A DNA stretch of 64,000 bases from Halorubrum sp. CBA1229 (GTDB lineage Archaea > Halobacteriota > Halobacteria > Halobacteriales > Haloferacaceae): assembly GCF_003721435.2 (NCBI RefSeq), contig NZ_CP054585.1:2480001-2544000 (forward strand), written 5' to 3'. The translations under genes and the position numbers were made by a program. Positions 25,043 through 30,244 of the stretch are shown here, one piece after another (within the stretch, counting starts at the first letter, position 1; each line of letters opens with the position of its first letter). Below the pieces are notes generated by a model. It saw nothing but the letters and a program-made list of their open reading frames with translations, was not told the origin of the DNA and made no database searches.

Positions 25043-25399
25043 TCAGAACGTGATGATCTCGTAGTCGTCGTCGACGAGCGAGCGGATGCTCGGGTGCCCG
25101 TCGTACTCGTCGAGCGTGACGAGCCCGGAGTCGGCCACGGTGTCCTCGACGCCGAACGCGCCGGAACAGAAGTCACAGACCGCGGCGTCGTCGCGGACCG
25201 CCTGGTAGAGCTCGTGGTAATCGCTCTCCTCGTCCTCCAGTTCCGGGATCCACTGGGTCCCGGCGCCGTCGAAGATCAGTTCCAACTCGTCGTCGTCGTT
25301 CTCGGCGAACTCCTTGGCCGCTTCGAGCGCGTTCGCGAGGCGGCCGTAGTCGGCGTGCGATTCGTTGCCGGCGAGAATCACGACTGCTGCGTTTGCCAT
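25043..25399 (-). CDS. DsrE-family protein
   Basis: A 118-residue DsrE/F-like alpha/beta domain. The family is marked by AVVILAGNESHADYGRLANALEAAKEF at the N-terminus, LIFDGAGTQW and VCDFCSGAFGV, which supplies a Cys pair (CDFC) near residue 74. DsrE proteins carry sulfur as persulfide or act as small peptide-binding partners. A TTATAAAT box lies only about 10-18 bases before the ATG, which is too close for a leaderless start and so does not clearly belong to this gene. Confidence 0.88.
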   Translation of the reverse strand: MANAAVVILAGNESHADYGRLANALEAAKEFAENDDDELELIFDGAGTQWIPELEDEESDYHELYQAVRDDAAVCDFCSGAFGVEDTVADSGLVTLDEYDGHPSIRSLVDDDYEIITF

Positions 25400-26133: not shown

Positions 26134-27846
26134 TCACGACTGTCCGATCGCGTTCCGGAGGGCGCGCTGGGCCCGGTAGAGCGTGTACGCGACCGAGAGG
26201 CCGACGAGGACGACGGCCGCCCCGGCGGCGGCGAGCACCGGCCCGGACGCCGGGGGCTTCAGGTCGTCGCCGCTCCCGCAGTTCCCGCAGCCGTCCTCGC
26301 CGCAGTTCCCGCAGCCGGGGAGGTCCGCGTCGGCGTCGTCGCCGGCCGCGTCCCGCTCTTCCGTAGCCGTCGAGCCGGCGGCCTCCGGCGCGTCGAGGCC
26401 CTCCGGGCTCGAGTGCTCGGCCGGATCGCCGACGGCGGACCCGGCGGCGTCCGCGGTCGCCGTCGGCGGCGTTCCGTCCGCGGCGCCCGAGGGGTCGGTC
26501 CGCCCGGTGGCAACGTCGATCGAGTCGCCCGCTCCCTCCGCCGAATCACCGGGCTCGTCCACCGATCCGCCGGACTCGTCGAACAGGTGCGGCGCGTGCG
26601 AGCGGAGCGCCTCCAGCCCCGCCTCGATCTCCTCGCGGTCCTCGTGGCCGACCGCGAACTCGGCGAGGTCCTCGACCATGGCCCGCGCGCGATCCGGGCG
26701 ATCCGTCTCCACGTAGCTCCGGGCGGCGTCGAACATCGCCCGGCCGAGCCAGTGTTCGAACACAGGGTTGTCGTACCCCCGTTCGAGCGCCTCGAGGCGT
26801 TCGAGCTTCGCCTCGCCCGCCTCCACGTCGCCGTCGAAGAAGGACGCCCGCGCGGAGAAGAACGTCGCCACCGCCGCCCACGTCGCGCTCGACGGGGTCG
26901 AGAGCCGCTCGTGGCGGTCGACGGTCTCGCCGGCCCAGTGTTCGACTCGGGCGACGTCCGCCGCCTCGAAGCCGGCGCGCGCGGCGTTCGCCGTCGCGAC
27001 CGGGAGCCAACGGACGATCGACTCCTCCTGTGCCGGGTATCGGTCCGCGAGCGCCTCGATCCGGCCGATCCGCTCCTCGATCGCCTCCACGTCCGTCCGC
27101 TCGGCGTCGGCGTTCGTGCGCCCGGCGAGGACCCCGGCCAGCCCCGCGGCGACCTCCCCGTCGGGGTGGGCCCGGAACAGCTCCTCGGCGCGGGCGACGC
27201 GGTCGCCTCGGGCGTCGCGCTCGGCCGGGACGGTTTCGGGGTCCGACTCGTCGCTTCCGAGGGTCACGTCGGCGGCGTCGCCGCCTTCGAGGTCCGCGTC
27301 GAGGTACAGCTCCGCGTGGGCGTAGGCCCGCAGCAGCGAGGCGGCGACGTCCGGCTCGGAGTGGGCGTCGTACACCGCTTCGAGCCGGTCCAGGAGCGGT
27401 CCGATCCGGTCGCGGCGACCGGCCTTCCCGTTCGCGTGGATCGTCTCGGCCGTCGCCCGGGCCAGCGGCGCCGCGATCGCCGGCTCCGGGCGGCGACCGT
27501 ACAGCTCCTCGATCCGCTCCCGGTACTCCTCGATCCGGTCGGGGTCGATCGCGGTCTCGTAGACGTCGTCGCGGTCCCGCACGCTCGTCGCGTTCGCGAG
27601 GGCGTTCGCGAGGTGGACGTCGACGTCGCCGCCGTCGTCCCCGGCGCGGCGCAGCCGGTCCAGCCGCGCGATCATCTCGGCCTCGGCGTCGAACTCACCG
27701 CGGTCGCCGTACGCGTCGGCGAGCGCGACGAGCGCGTCGGTCAGGCGTGCGCGGTCGTCCGCCTCCATCTCGCCCGGCGCCGCCGCGTCGAACGCCTCGA
27801 CGCGCCGTTCGAGCTCGCCGACCGAGCGCGTGTCGCTGGATACCAT
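26134..27846 (-). CDS. Large helical-repeat protein with CGNC pair and C-terminal membrane anchor
   Basis: A 570-residue protein. Residues 1-410 are alpha-helical repeats of the TPR/HEAT kind. A low-complexity linker of Asp, Gly, Ala, Ser, Pro (about 420-505) follows, then CGNCGEDGCGNCG (512-524), a CxxC-x4-CxxC arrangement that could bind zinc or form disulfides. A single transmembrane segment (about 537-556) and 14 basic residues end it, making a tail-anchored topology likely. No family is recognised. GCGTTTACGTC near 27880 is the promoter candidate. Function is unknown; a scaffold at the membrane is inferred. Confidence 0.75.
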   Translation of the reverse strand: MVSSDTRSVGELERRVEAFDAAAPGEMEADDRARLTDALVALADAYGDRGEFDAEAEMIARLDRLRRAGDDGGDVDVHLANALANATSVRDRDDVYETAIDPDRIEEYRERIEELYGRRPEPAIAAPLARATAETIHANGKAGRRDRIGPLLDRLEAVYDAHSEPDVAASLLRAYAHAELYLDADLEGGDAADVTLGSDESDPETVPAERDARGDRVARAEELFRAHPDGEVAAGLAGVLAGRTNADAERTDVEAIEERIGRIEALADRYPAQEESIVRWLPVATANAARAGFEAADVARVEHWAGETVDRHERLSTPSSATWAAVATFFSARASFFDGDVEAGEAKLERLEALERGYDNPVFEHWLGRAMFDAARSYVETDRPDRARAMVEDLAEFAVGHEDREEIEAGLEALRSHAPHLFDESGGSVDEPGDSAEGAGDSIDVATGRTDPSGAADGTPPTATADAAGSAVGDPAEHSSPEGLDAPEAAGSTATEERDAAGDDADADLPGCGNCGEDGCGNCGSGDDLKPPASGPVLAAAGAAVVLVGLSVAYTLYRAQRALRNAIGQS

Positions 27847-27992
27847 GTGTGTTGGTTCGAGGTTGGGACGGACCGACGTAAACGCTCGCCTTCGGGGCGC
27901 TCTCGCGGCGACCCGAGGGAGCGTTCGGCGACGCCGGTCGGGCGTGGTGCCCGAGCGGGAGCGTGGCGACGCCCGCCGGGCGCGGCGACCGC

Positions 27993-29453
27993 TCAGTGTC
28001 CGTGCCCGTGGTCGTGTCCGCCGCCGCGCGAGAACTGCCCCGAGAAGGCCCGGTCGACGACCTCGGAGAGCGCGGGGTGGATGTGGACCGCGTCGCGGAT
28101 GTCCGCCACCGTCTCCGACCCCGCCGTCATCGCGACGACGACCTCCTCGATCAGGTTCGACGCCTCCGGGCCGACGATGTGACAGCCGAGGATCTCGCCG
28201 TCGAGGTCGATGAGGACCTTCACGAAGCCGTCGGCGTGCATCGCGCTCCCGCGGGCCGTCTCGTCGTACGCGTATGTGTTGGTGGCGTACTCGACATTAG
28301 CCTCGCGGAGGTCCTGCTCGCGCGCCCCGACGCCCGCGACCTCGGGCGACGCGAAGACGGCGAACGGCATCGCCGAGTAGTCGACGGGTTCCGGCTCGTC
28401 ACCCAGCAGGTTCCGGACCACGGCCTTCGCCTCGTGGTTCGCGCTGTGTTTGAGCAGGTACTCGCCGACCGCGTCGCCGAGCGCCCACACCCCTTCGGCG
28501 TCCGTCCGGAGGTACTCGTCGGTCTCGACGAACCCCCGCTCGTCGGTCTCCACGCCGGTCGCGTCGAGGTCGAGCATGTCTGTGTTCGGGCGGCGCCCCG
28601 CGGCGACGAGCAGTTCGTCGCCCGAGACGGTCACGGACTCCGCCTCGTCGGGCGCGCCGACCATCTCCCCGCTCGCGCGGACCGAGTCGGCCTCGGGGTA
28701 CGGGCGGGCCTCGACGGTCACCTCGCCGTCGGCCGCGTCGGCGGCGACAGCCTCGTAACCCGTGTACACGTCGAACCGGTCGGCGTAGCGGTCGGTGAAC
28801 GCCTCGCCGACCTCCGCGTCCGCCTCCGGGAGGAGGTGCTCGCGGCGGCCGACGATCGTCACGTCGCTGCCGAACGTCCCGAAGAAGTGGCCGAGCTCGG
28901 CCGCGATGTACCCGCCGCCGACGATCACGAGGCGGTCCGGCGGCGACTCCAGGCGTAGCGCCTCCGTGCTCGTGAGGTAGTCGACGTCCTCGATCCCGTC
29001 GATCGGGGGGATCGAGGGACGGCTGCCGGTGGCGACGAGCACCGTGTCGGCGCGGAGCGTCGCGCCCGCGTCGTCGCCGTCGAAGATCTCCACCGTCCGG
29101 TCGTCGACGAACCGCCCGGTCCCCGAGAACAGGTCGTGGGCGTCCGAGGAGGTGAGGCCCCGCCGGATCGACTCGGAGCTCCCGGCGACGTCCTCGTTCA
29201 CTTTCTGGACGATCTCCGCGAAGTCGACGTCGCGCACCTCGGTGTCGATCTCGAACCCGCCGGCGCCCTCGATCGTCTCCATCACATCGGCGTGGTACAG
29301 CAGCTGCTTCGAGGGGATGCAGCCGCGGTTGAGACAGGTCCCGCCGAGCCGCCCCTCCTCGACGACCGCCACCGAGTTACCGCGGCCGGCCATCGCGTTC
29401 GCCACGTCCAACCCCGACCCGGATCCGATCACGAGGAAGTCGAACTCCTGCAT
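27993..29453 (-). CDS. Dihydrolipoamide-dehydrogenase-like flavoprotein with His tail
   Basis: A 486-residue pyridine nucleotide-disulfide oxidoreductase. FAD binding is FLVIGSGSGLDVANA, the redox disulfide is GTCLNRGCIPSK (C40, C45), NAD binding is VGGGYIAAELGHF, and the C-terminal HPALSEVVDRAF carries the catalytic His. It ends GGGHDHGHGH, an unusual metal-binding-like tail not typical of lipoamide dehydrogenase. No 2-oxoacid dehydrogenase genes are nearby; a mycothione-, gamma-glutamylcystine- or mercuric-reductase-like role is possible. The start at 29453 is set by homology. Confidence 0.9.
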   Translation of the reverse strand: MQEFDFLVIGSGSGLDVANAMAGRGNSVAVVEEGRLGGTCLNRGCIPSKQLLYHADVMETIEGAGGFEIDTEVRDVDFAEIVQKVNEDVAGSSESIRRGLTSSDAHDLFSGTGRFVDDRTVEIFDGDDAGATLRADTVLVATGSRPSIPPIDGIEDVDYLTSTEALRLESPPDRLVIVGGGYIAAELGHFFGTFGSDVTIVGRREHLLPEADAEVGEAFTDRYADRFDVYTGYEAVAADAADGEVTVEARPYPEADSVRASGEMVGAPDEAESVTVSGDELLVAAGRRPNTDMLDLDATGVETDERGFVETDEYLRTDAEGVWALGDAVGEYLLKHSANHEAKAVVRNLLGDEPEPVDYSAMPFAVFASPEVAGVGAREQDLREANVEYATNTYAYDETARGSAMHADGFVKVLIDLDGEILGCHIVGPEASNLIEEVVVAMTAGSETVADIRDAVHIHPALSEVVDRAFSGQFSRGGGHDHGHGH

Positions 29454-29577
29454 GGGTCGGCCGACGAGGGCCACGGTCATCAAGGCCCGTCCGCCGTGGC
29501 GCGAGCCGCACACGATCGCGGCAGCGAACCGAGACGGGTTATCGGCCGGTAACGGCCGGCGGGGGACCGTTCGGGGT

Positions 29578-30093
29578 TTATAAATACGATTTCCCGTCCG
29601 GGAGTTCGCACTCGTCGCCGTGACACTGCGCGGCGTGCTCGACGGCCTCGAGGTCGGGTTCGTCGGCGGTCTCCTCGCTCCGCCAGGCGTACTGCACCGT
29701 TCGGTCGGGGTCGACCACGAAGACCGCCGACCGCGCGACGCCGCGGTGGTCGTCCAGCTCGTCGGCGCGCACGCCGTACGCCTCGGCGACGCGCCCGTCG
29801 CTGTCGGAGAGCAGCGGGAAGTCGATCCGGTGTTTCTCCGCGAACGCGCGGTGGCTGTAGACGCCGTCCGTCGAGATCCCGAGGACGACGGTGTCCTCCA
29901 GCAGCGACAGCGCCTCGCTGTCCCGCAGCGTGCACATCTGCGAGGTACACACCGGGTGGAAGTCGAACGGGTAGAACACCACCACGACCGCCCACCCGTT
30001 GTCTGCGTACTCCGTCAGTCCGTGCGCGTCTATCCGCCCGCCCCCCGCGCCGGGGAGCTCGAACGTCGGCGCCTGTTGCCCGGGTTGAAGCAT
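29578..30093 (-). CDS. Peroxiredoxin, BCP/AhpE-like
   Basis: A 171-residue thiol peroxidase with the peroxidatic Cys49 in FYPFDFHPVCTSQMC and a second Cys54 five residues on, the BCP-type arrangement that forms an intramolecular disulfide. SRSD-like LLSDSDGRVAEAYGV and VFVVDPDRTVQYAW follow. It reduces peroxides in the cytosol. The start at 30093 is set by homology. A TATTTAAAT box directly abuts the ATG, too close for a leaderless transcript, so the actual promoter is unclear. Confidence 0.93.
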   Translation of the reverse strand: MLQPGQQAPTFELPGAGGGRIDAHGLTEYADNGWAVVVVFYPFDFHPVCTSQMCTLRDSEALSLLEDTVVLGISTDGVYSHRAFAEKHRIDFPLLSDSDGRVAEAYGVRADELDDHRGVARSAVFVVDPDRTVQYAWRSEETADEPDLEAVEHAAQCHGDECELPDGKSYL

Positions 30094-30244
30094 ATTTAAA
30101 TAGCGGTGGCGGAGCGGGATGAGTCTCGGCCGCTCGTGCGAGATAGACACACACATCCGAAAGCGCTTCTGCTGGGACCGGCGAGCGTGCCCTCGCGCCG
30201 CACACCCAACAGTCATTTATCAACGCTCGCCGCCTCCCGGCCGT

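Follow-up and report, generated by a model that had tools for sequence, protein, structure and literature searches.

A conserved, unnamed haloarchaeal protein combining a predicted TPR-like superhelix, a tail anchor and a putative metal-binding cysteine knuckle

The window analysed here, a stretch of 64,000 nucleotides from a Halorubrum genome, carries a gene whose product ends in a cluster of cysteines next to a hydrophobic segment, which raises the question of what kind of protein this is and what such a cluster would do beside a membrane. The gene (26134..27846, minus strand) is an open frame of 570 codons plus the stop that starts with ATG, translates into 570 residues and can be aligned with its orthologues over the full length. 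The plus-strand frame over the same positions is also stop-free, but it is arginine-rich and was not taken as the gene. An earlier note on this DNA had left the strand unsaid and had not recognised the family, in agreement with our finding that no Pfam or NCBIfam family reached threshold when the profiles were run against the whole protein. Likewise, PADLOC gave no match for the 570-residue protein, a sequence search against the PDB gave none and a further search three chance-level matches, the BFVD fold search returned nothing at E 0.001 or better, and general terms found no paper on the protein in the open-licence literature. Nevertheless, this is a real and conserved, if unnamed, protein in which known parts (a TPR-like superhelix, a tail anchor and a C(P)XCG-type knuckle) are combined in a new way. 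As for its molecular function, we infer, expecting to be right about as often as wrong, that it is an adaptor with a TPR-like body and a tail anchor, and that the C(P)XCG-type knuckle near the membrane would bind a metal, probably zinc.

The gene is found as a single copy in its own genome. In all, there are 16 orthologues, in 14 of 52 Halorubrum genomes and two in another family of the order, and all of them were aligned over their full length (alignment A2). An order-wide search gave matches with E-values up to 0.001 in 19 of 392 genomes, made up of 11 with full-length orthologues (nine Halorubrum, plus G055 and G084 from the other family) and eight with matches to the repeats only. When the alignment was used as the query, 14 of the 392 genomes matched, namely the identical 11 and three weak ones; in these order-wide searches three candidates were scored per genome, and distant relatives have possibly been missed. 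A scan of named genomes gave 11 records, all of them from Halorubrum.

In its own locus, the gene lies between those of an lpd-type flavoprotein and a lipoprotein-like protein, with a DsrE-like gene beyond, the last two names being readings of the sequence that have no Pfam match. The lpd-type pyridine-nucleotide-disulphide oxidoreductase (27993-29471, minus strand) has a His-rich end, GGGHDHGHGH, and a peroxiredoxin-family (AhpC-TSA) gene lies upstream of it (29578-30096, minus strand), so that the two may form a metal- or redox-related pair. The small DsrE-like protein (25043-25399, minus strand) carries a CDFC motif and shares up to 97% identity with copies outside its own genome. It is encoded next or next but one to the gene in seven orthologues, this one included. 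The neighbours are different elsewhere: FKBP and Usp-like genes follow the gene at L019, L109 and L110, three further copies (L020, L022 and L108) have each a different setting of their own, and in the two copies of the other family (L023 and L107) the gene precedes those of an alpha/beta-hydrolase and a phosphate transporter. There are, thus, six kinds of neighbourhood over 15 of the 16 copies, five of them within the genus, L021 being left out as it lies at a contig end. The DsrE-like gene was considered as an operon partner and rejected, as it occurs in 41 of the 52 genomes whether or not the target gene is present. Among 30 loci around the DsrE-like gene, the target gene is upstream in seven, the lpd gene is upstream with no target gene between in 13, and 10 were unclassed. 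The lipoprotein-like gene is present in nine of the 13 target-less arrays, and the other four have no match to it; one of these 13 arrays is that of G361, a genome that nonetheless has the target gene elsewhere. Together, the target-less arrays and the varied neighbourhoods suggest that the gene is gained and lost as a single unit.

The DNA ahead of the gene is also conserved and goes with it. A block, CGAA..GCGAGCGTTTA (27847..27897, minus strand), is shared by the 14 Halorubrum copies, and the TTTA starts 36 nt before the ATG in the window copy and 35-38 nt before it across the 14. The mean majority fraction in these copies is 0.82 within 20 nt on each side of the TTTA, against 0.47-0.48 further upstream; with one copy per neighbourhood (five copies), eight and eight of 20 positions flanking the TTTA are invariant, against one and none of 20 further upstream. 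The block resembles a haloarchaeal promoter, which suggests that the gene is probably transcribed alone.

Most of the protein is predicted to be helical. AlphaFold2, run on an alignment of 16 sequences, gave a mean pLDDT of 72; 241 residues score 90 or above, and the model has 21 helices as far as residue 417, in keeping with the helical-repeat protein of 570 residues that had been proposed for this frame. In the model, antiparallel helix pairs are stacked in a superhelix that spans residues 9-421 (26584..27822), where most 10-residue blocks have a pLDDT of 76-98. In the PDB, Foldseek gave 17 matches with E-values no higher than 0.001, the TPR domains of LGN/Pins ranking first (E 4.8e-05), and VIA-align against LGN (5a6c_A) gave Z 19.1 with 325 residues aligned at 4.3 A, on a scale where values below about 13 among helical repeats may reflect a mere common arrangement. 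A designed PPR protein (5orm) ties with LGN on the VIA-align Z, at 7.1 A. A TPR/PPR-like superhelix is, thus, well supported as the predicted fold class, though no particular relative is. At the sequence level, no TPR profile reached its cut-off, Pfam TPR_4 giving E 0.75 and 11 bits where 27 are required; the distant orthologue L025 matched YfiO at E 0.00078, under the cut-off, L024 had no profile match, and some relatives of the repeats gave sub-threshold matches to TPR profiles.

Conservation is uneven along the superhelix. An acidic loop within it (residues 184-214; 27205..27297) has no invariant column among 31 in the 16 aligned rows, and is reduced to two residues in the two distant copies and to five in L022. 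With the helices paired as read from the helix list, without model coordinates, 77 of 146 positions are invariant in A helices and 42 of 130 in their B counterparts, a higher share in the former (p 0.0007 by Fisher's test). The A helices of TPR proteins line the inner face, and their better conservation suggests that the concave face is the part most likely to hold a partner peptide or helix. A ligand groove is, thus, plausible in the modelled superhelix, although the contrast between A and B helices may stem from helix packing instead.

Beyond the superhelix, residues 424-535 are disordered in the model (pLDDT <50). They include a low-complexity acidic linker (residues 425-508; 26323..26574) with 21 D/E against 2 K/R in 87 residues and not one invariant column among 84. 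Near the end of the disordered region, CGNCGEDGCGNCG (26278..26313) holds the protein's only four cysteines, C512, C515, C520 and C523, in the spacing CxxC-x4-CxxC of a putative C4/C3H metal knuckle; by simple arithmetic, four cysteines placed at random would fall within 12 of 570 residues about 2 times in 100,000. A juxtamembrane PASGP motif comes next (residues 532-536; 26239..26253), of which P532, A533, S534 and P536 are invariant in the 16 rows. A single hydrophobic segment at about residues 537-555 (26182..26238; mean Kyte-Doolittle value of 2.08 across its 19 residues) is present in all 16 rows and overlaps a final model helix (538-569) predicted at low confidence, and the protein ends in a basic tail (residues 556-570; 26137..26181), LYRAQRALRNAIGQS, with three Arg and no acidic residue. 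The acidic low-complexity linker, the cysteine spacing and the single membrane segment with its basic tail had all been described in the earlier note, and all of them were borne out.

This architecture is that of a tail-anchored protein, with one C-terminal segment, a short tail and, in the window protein, an N-terminus without any signal-like hydrophobic stretch (the best 15-residue hydropathy mean is 0.29 for stretches starting at residues 1-30). Because such an export signal is absent, the body would be placed in the cytoplasm. By contrast, the C-terminal tail is net positive (+1 to +4) and the N-terminal flank of the segment has a charge of -4 to 0 in all 16 rows; under the positive-inside rule, the net-positive side of a membrane segment is the cytoplasmic one, and the flanking charges would, thus, argue for a cytoplasmic tail and against a cytoplasmic body. 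The genome encodes ArsA/Get3-family ATPases and an EMC3-type insertase, but the ArsA/Get3-type family is found in all 14 control genomes, bacteria included, and this is therefore only permissive.

Unlike the linker, the cysteine cluster is conserved. All four cysteines, with the CxxC-x4-CxxC spacing, are present in the 14 Halorubrum orthologues, so that the loss in close orthologues that the earlier note named as refuting its proposal is not seen. In both distant orthologues, the first Cys is replaced by His (HxxC-x4-CxxC, HGSC) and the other three cysteines are kept. Residues 511-524 have 10 of 14 columns invariant in the 14 Halorubrum rows, against one of 84 in the linker, and six of 14 in the 16 rows, against none of 84 in the linker and none of 31 in the internal loop. 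In addition, the codons of the cluster show synonymous differences among copies, and this, together with the conserved columns, points to selection on the protein. The two CxxC(G) knuckles would supply four ligands, and CGxCG is found twice in 13 of the 16 rows; copy L022 is without the last Gly of the knuckles (CGNCE), and the distant copies, with HGSCE and CGDCN, have lost the Gly after each knuckle. The gap of four residues is unusually short for two CxxC knuckles. The residue x of the two CGxC knuckles is matched within each Halorubrum copy, N/N in 12 and S/S in two of the 14 and mixed in none, whereas the distant rows have Ser and Asp. In copy L024, the two Ser come from different codon boxes (TCG and AGC), so that the copying of one knuckle onto the other is a poor account of the S/S match. 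From its sequence, we infer that the cluster would be a metal site whose two halves resemble each other.

Other proteins with such a cluster ahead of a membrane segment were also sought. A DNA pattern for CGxC-x4-CGxC was found in 56 of the 392 genomes, several of the matches being orthologues, and 22 of 30 non-orthologue loci that were fetched have an open frame of at least 60 codons with the motif; in none of the scorable ones does a membrane-like stretch follow it, the best downstream hydropathy mean being 1.17. Seven of the other loci have frames of 23-59 codons, and L066 has a stop inside the pattern. The second match to the pattern in the genome of the window lies in a frame that appears non-coding. 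A search of the 52 genomes with the tail only gave no convincing second carrier beyond the 14 orthologues, further matches beginning at E 0.002 with 26-54% identity. The best profile matches of three tails (HflK at E 0.049, DUF7550 at E 0.52 and FeoB_associated at E 0.76) are far under the cut-offs and were taken as chance.

Several other explanations of these observations have to be weighed. The cluster might act as a redox sensor whose CxxC pairs form and break disulfides, changing the state of the scaffold at the membrane; there are two CxxC motifs and no further Cys in the window copy, and oxidoreductase and peroxiredoxin-family genes lie just upstream in the same genome. We nevertheless regard this as unlikely, as the change of the first Cys to His in two of 16 rows keeps a metal ligand and loses a disulfide partner, and the neighbours are inconstant, lpd and DsrE-like genes occurring together in 13 of 30 loci with no target gene (that of G361 included, with its target gene elsewhere). 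The earlier proposal of a redox-sensing membrane scaffold is, thus, kept in its second half, as the TPR-type model and the PDB matches favour a scaffold, while the redox-sensing half is left unsupported by the His in both distant orthologues, by the C(P)XCG kind of motif, which bound zinc in nine of 14 tested H. volcanii proteins (PMC11241148), and by the inconstant lpd neighbour. An iron-sulfur centre, held within one chain or between two in a scaffold for electron transfer or iron sensing, would also accommodate the His, as C3H ligand sets are known among Fe-S proteins, and the C-x4-C-x2-C spacing is similar to that of plant-type [2Fe-2S] ferredoxins. However, the ferredoxin signature requires Gly/Ala where the window protein has Asp, the model is disordered around the cluster, and the Pfam and NCBIfam matches include no Fe-S family, all of which makes such a centre very unlikely.

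The order of the C-terminal parts is also that of the tripartite MYXO-CTERM tags, in the part of their description available (PMC11980579), and the cysteine motif, helix and basic tail could be a sorting signal that is cut and lipidated, leaving the body outside. In all 16 rows, the charges would fit a tail inside, and an invariant P-A-S-x-P precedes the helix; yet the window protein has no N-terminal hydrophobic stretch, whereas, in the available part of that description, all 35 MYXO-CTERM proteins of M. xanthus have signal peptides (PMC11980579). Moreover, the 52 genomes hold no convincing second carrier of the tail, against dozens in myxobacteria, and no CTERM model matched up to E 1 with the whole protein or up to E 10 with the tails, where the filters drop most weak matches. 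We consider a sorting signal quite unlikely. Finally, the gene might be a mobile passenger of little constant function, gained and lost with its promoter among Halorubrum strains, as its presence in 14 of 52 genomes, the five kinds of neighbourhood in the genus and the target-less arrays at 13 of 30 loci would suggest. But body and cluster are strongly conserved while the linker changes fast, which argues for a selected function, and tblastn against plasmids and phages, as well as viral contigs, found no copy, so that we hold this explanation to be highly improbable.

The adaptor with a metal knuckle remains our preferred reading, and it would work as follows. The predicted TPR-type superhelix of residues 9-421 would grip a partner peptide or helix, most likely with its concave face, and an acidic, disordered leash some 90 residues long would connect it to the membrane. 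Right ahead of the anchor, the two CGxC knuckles would hold a single metal ion, with Zn2+ as the likeliest, through the ligands that conservation suggests, and this metal clasp would cap the leash or pair two chains. The C-terminal helix would insert and anchor the protein by its tail, leaving the body on the cytoplasmic side if the missing export signal is a reliable guide. As the product of a gene that stands alone under a promoter of its own, the protein would bring a soluble client to the membrane. Counting against this reading are the lack of any TPR profile at cut-off, the charges around the membrane segment, the short gap between the knuckles and the lost Gly residues of the distant copies, as well as the five of 14 tested C(P)XCG proteins that bound no zinc and the rarity of the motif in larger H. 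volcanii proteins (PMC11241148). A more daring version, which we hold to be rather improbable, is an archaeal docking receptor analogous to Tom70 or FKBP38, in which the tail-anchored superhelix would take the tails of clients, the clasp would pair chains in a manner set by the metal or its oxidative loss, and the single promoter-carrying gene would be passed between strains.

If the adaptor reading is right, archaea would gain a TPR receptor that is tethered to the membrane and carries a metal clasp, in a field (the docking of soluble proteins at archaeal membranes and archaeal tail-anchored proteins) that has been little studied. It would also offer a clean test case, as the rare C(P)XCG site of a large protein could be compared in its natural C4 and C3H forms. 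If it is wrong, a well-conserved unnamed haloarchaeal family is still at hand as a candidate for a domain model.

The closest comparison for the body is with TPR superhelix proteins such as LGN/Pins, Tom70 and the TPR domain of O-GlcNAc transferase, which share the stacked antiparallel helix pairs. In contrast to them, the window protein is archaeal, has no TPR profile at cut-off, has its array split by the acidic loop and is anchored at the C-terminus, whereas the anchor of Tom70 is N-terminal. There are also the repeat-only relatives that the order-wide search found in eight other haloarchaeal genomes. Eleven of them (L026, L028-L033 and L035-L038) are similar over the repeats, with phmmer E-values between 1.6e-05 and 1.3e-20 when a small set of frames taken from the loci was searched, and are longer than the window protein; L027 was left out. 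None of the 11 has a comparable cysteine cluster, some of their frames being cut by the ends of the loci, which suggests that the cluster is a feature of the tail-anchored orthologue family.

Among these relatives, L036 (G188:C44, 2343 aa), L030 (G251:C48, 1823 aa), L029 and L031 are very long haloarchaeal open frames that consist largely of one TPR-like repeat, LDRLETLA..HPD.EEIQ..LA.AL.NA, with poor Pfam coverage in L029 and L031. L026 and L035, both from G169, apparently end in several hydrophobic segments, perhaps an alternative tethering of the fold, and L033 (G183:C2) has similar repeats behind what reads as a STAND/NACHT-type ATPase region, with no match in PADLOC.

At the C-terminus, the bacterial tail-anchored proteins DjlC and Flk, as far as the available part of their description goes (PMC6794478), have, as here, a single helix at the extreme C-terminus and no N-terminal signal; the window protein differs from them in that its tail has a net positive charge and the flank is neutral or acidic. 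MYXO-CTERM and other tripartite tags, in the part of PMC11980579 available, have a Cys motif, a membrane helix and a basic tail in common with the window protein, which is set apart by the lack of a signal peptide, the single carrier found per genome and the absence of a model match. For the cluster itself, the best comparison is with the C(P)XCG zinc-finger micro-proteins of haloarchaea (PMC11241148). According to the available part of that work, 49 small proteins of H. volcanii carry at least two C(P)XCG motifs, and, of 14 that were purified, nine bound zinc and five did not, three of these five (those analysable) holding another metal, likely cobalt or nickel; AlphaFold2 is said there not to decide metal binding in such proteins (PMC11241148). 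The micro-proteins, so far as described there, are also haloarchaeal and have two CxxCG knuckles with four Cys, but they are stand-alone and shorter than 70 aa, whereas here the knuckles are four residues apart in a membrane protein of 570 aa (PMC11241148). In the same account, the motif occurs in only 0.6% of the H. volcanii proteins above 100 aa (PMC11241148), so that the window protein would be among the rare large carriers of a C(P)XCG-type site.
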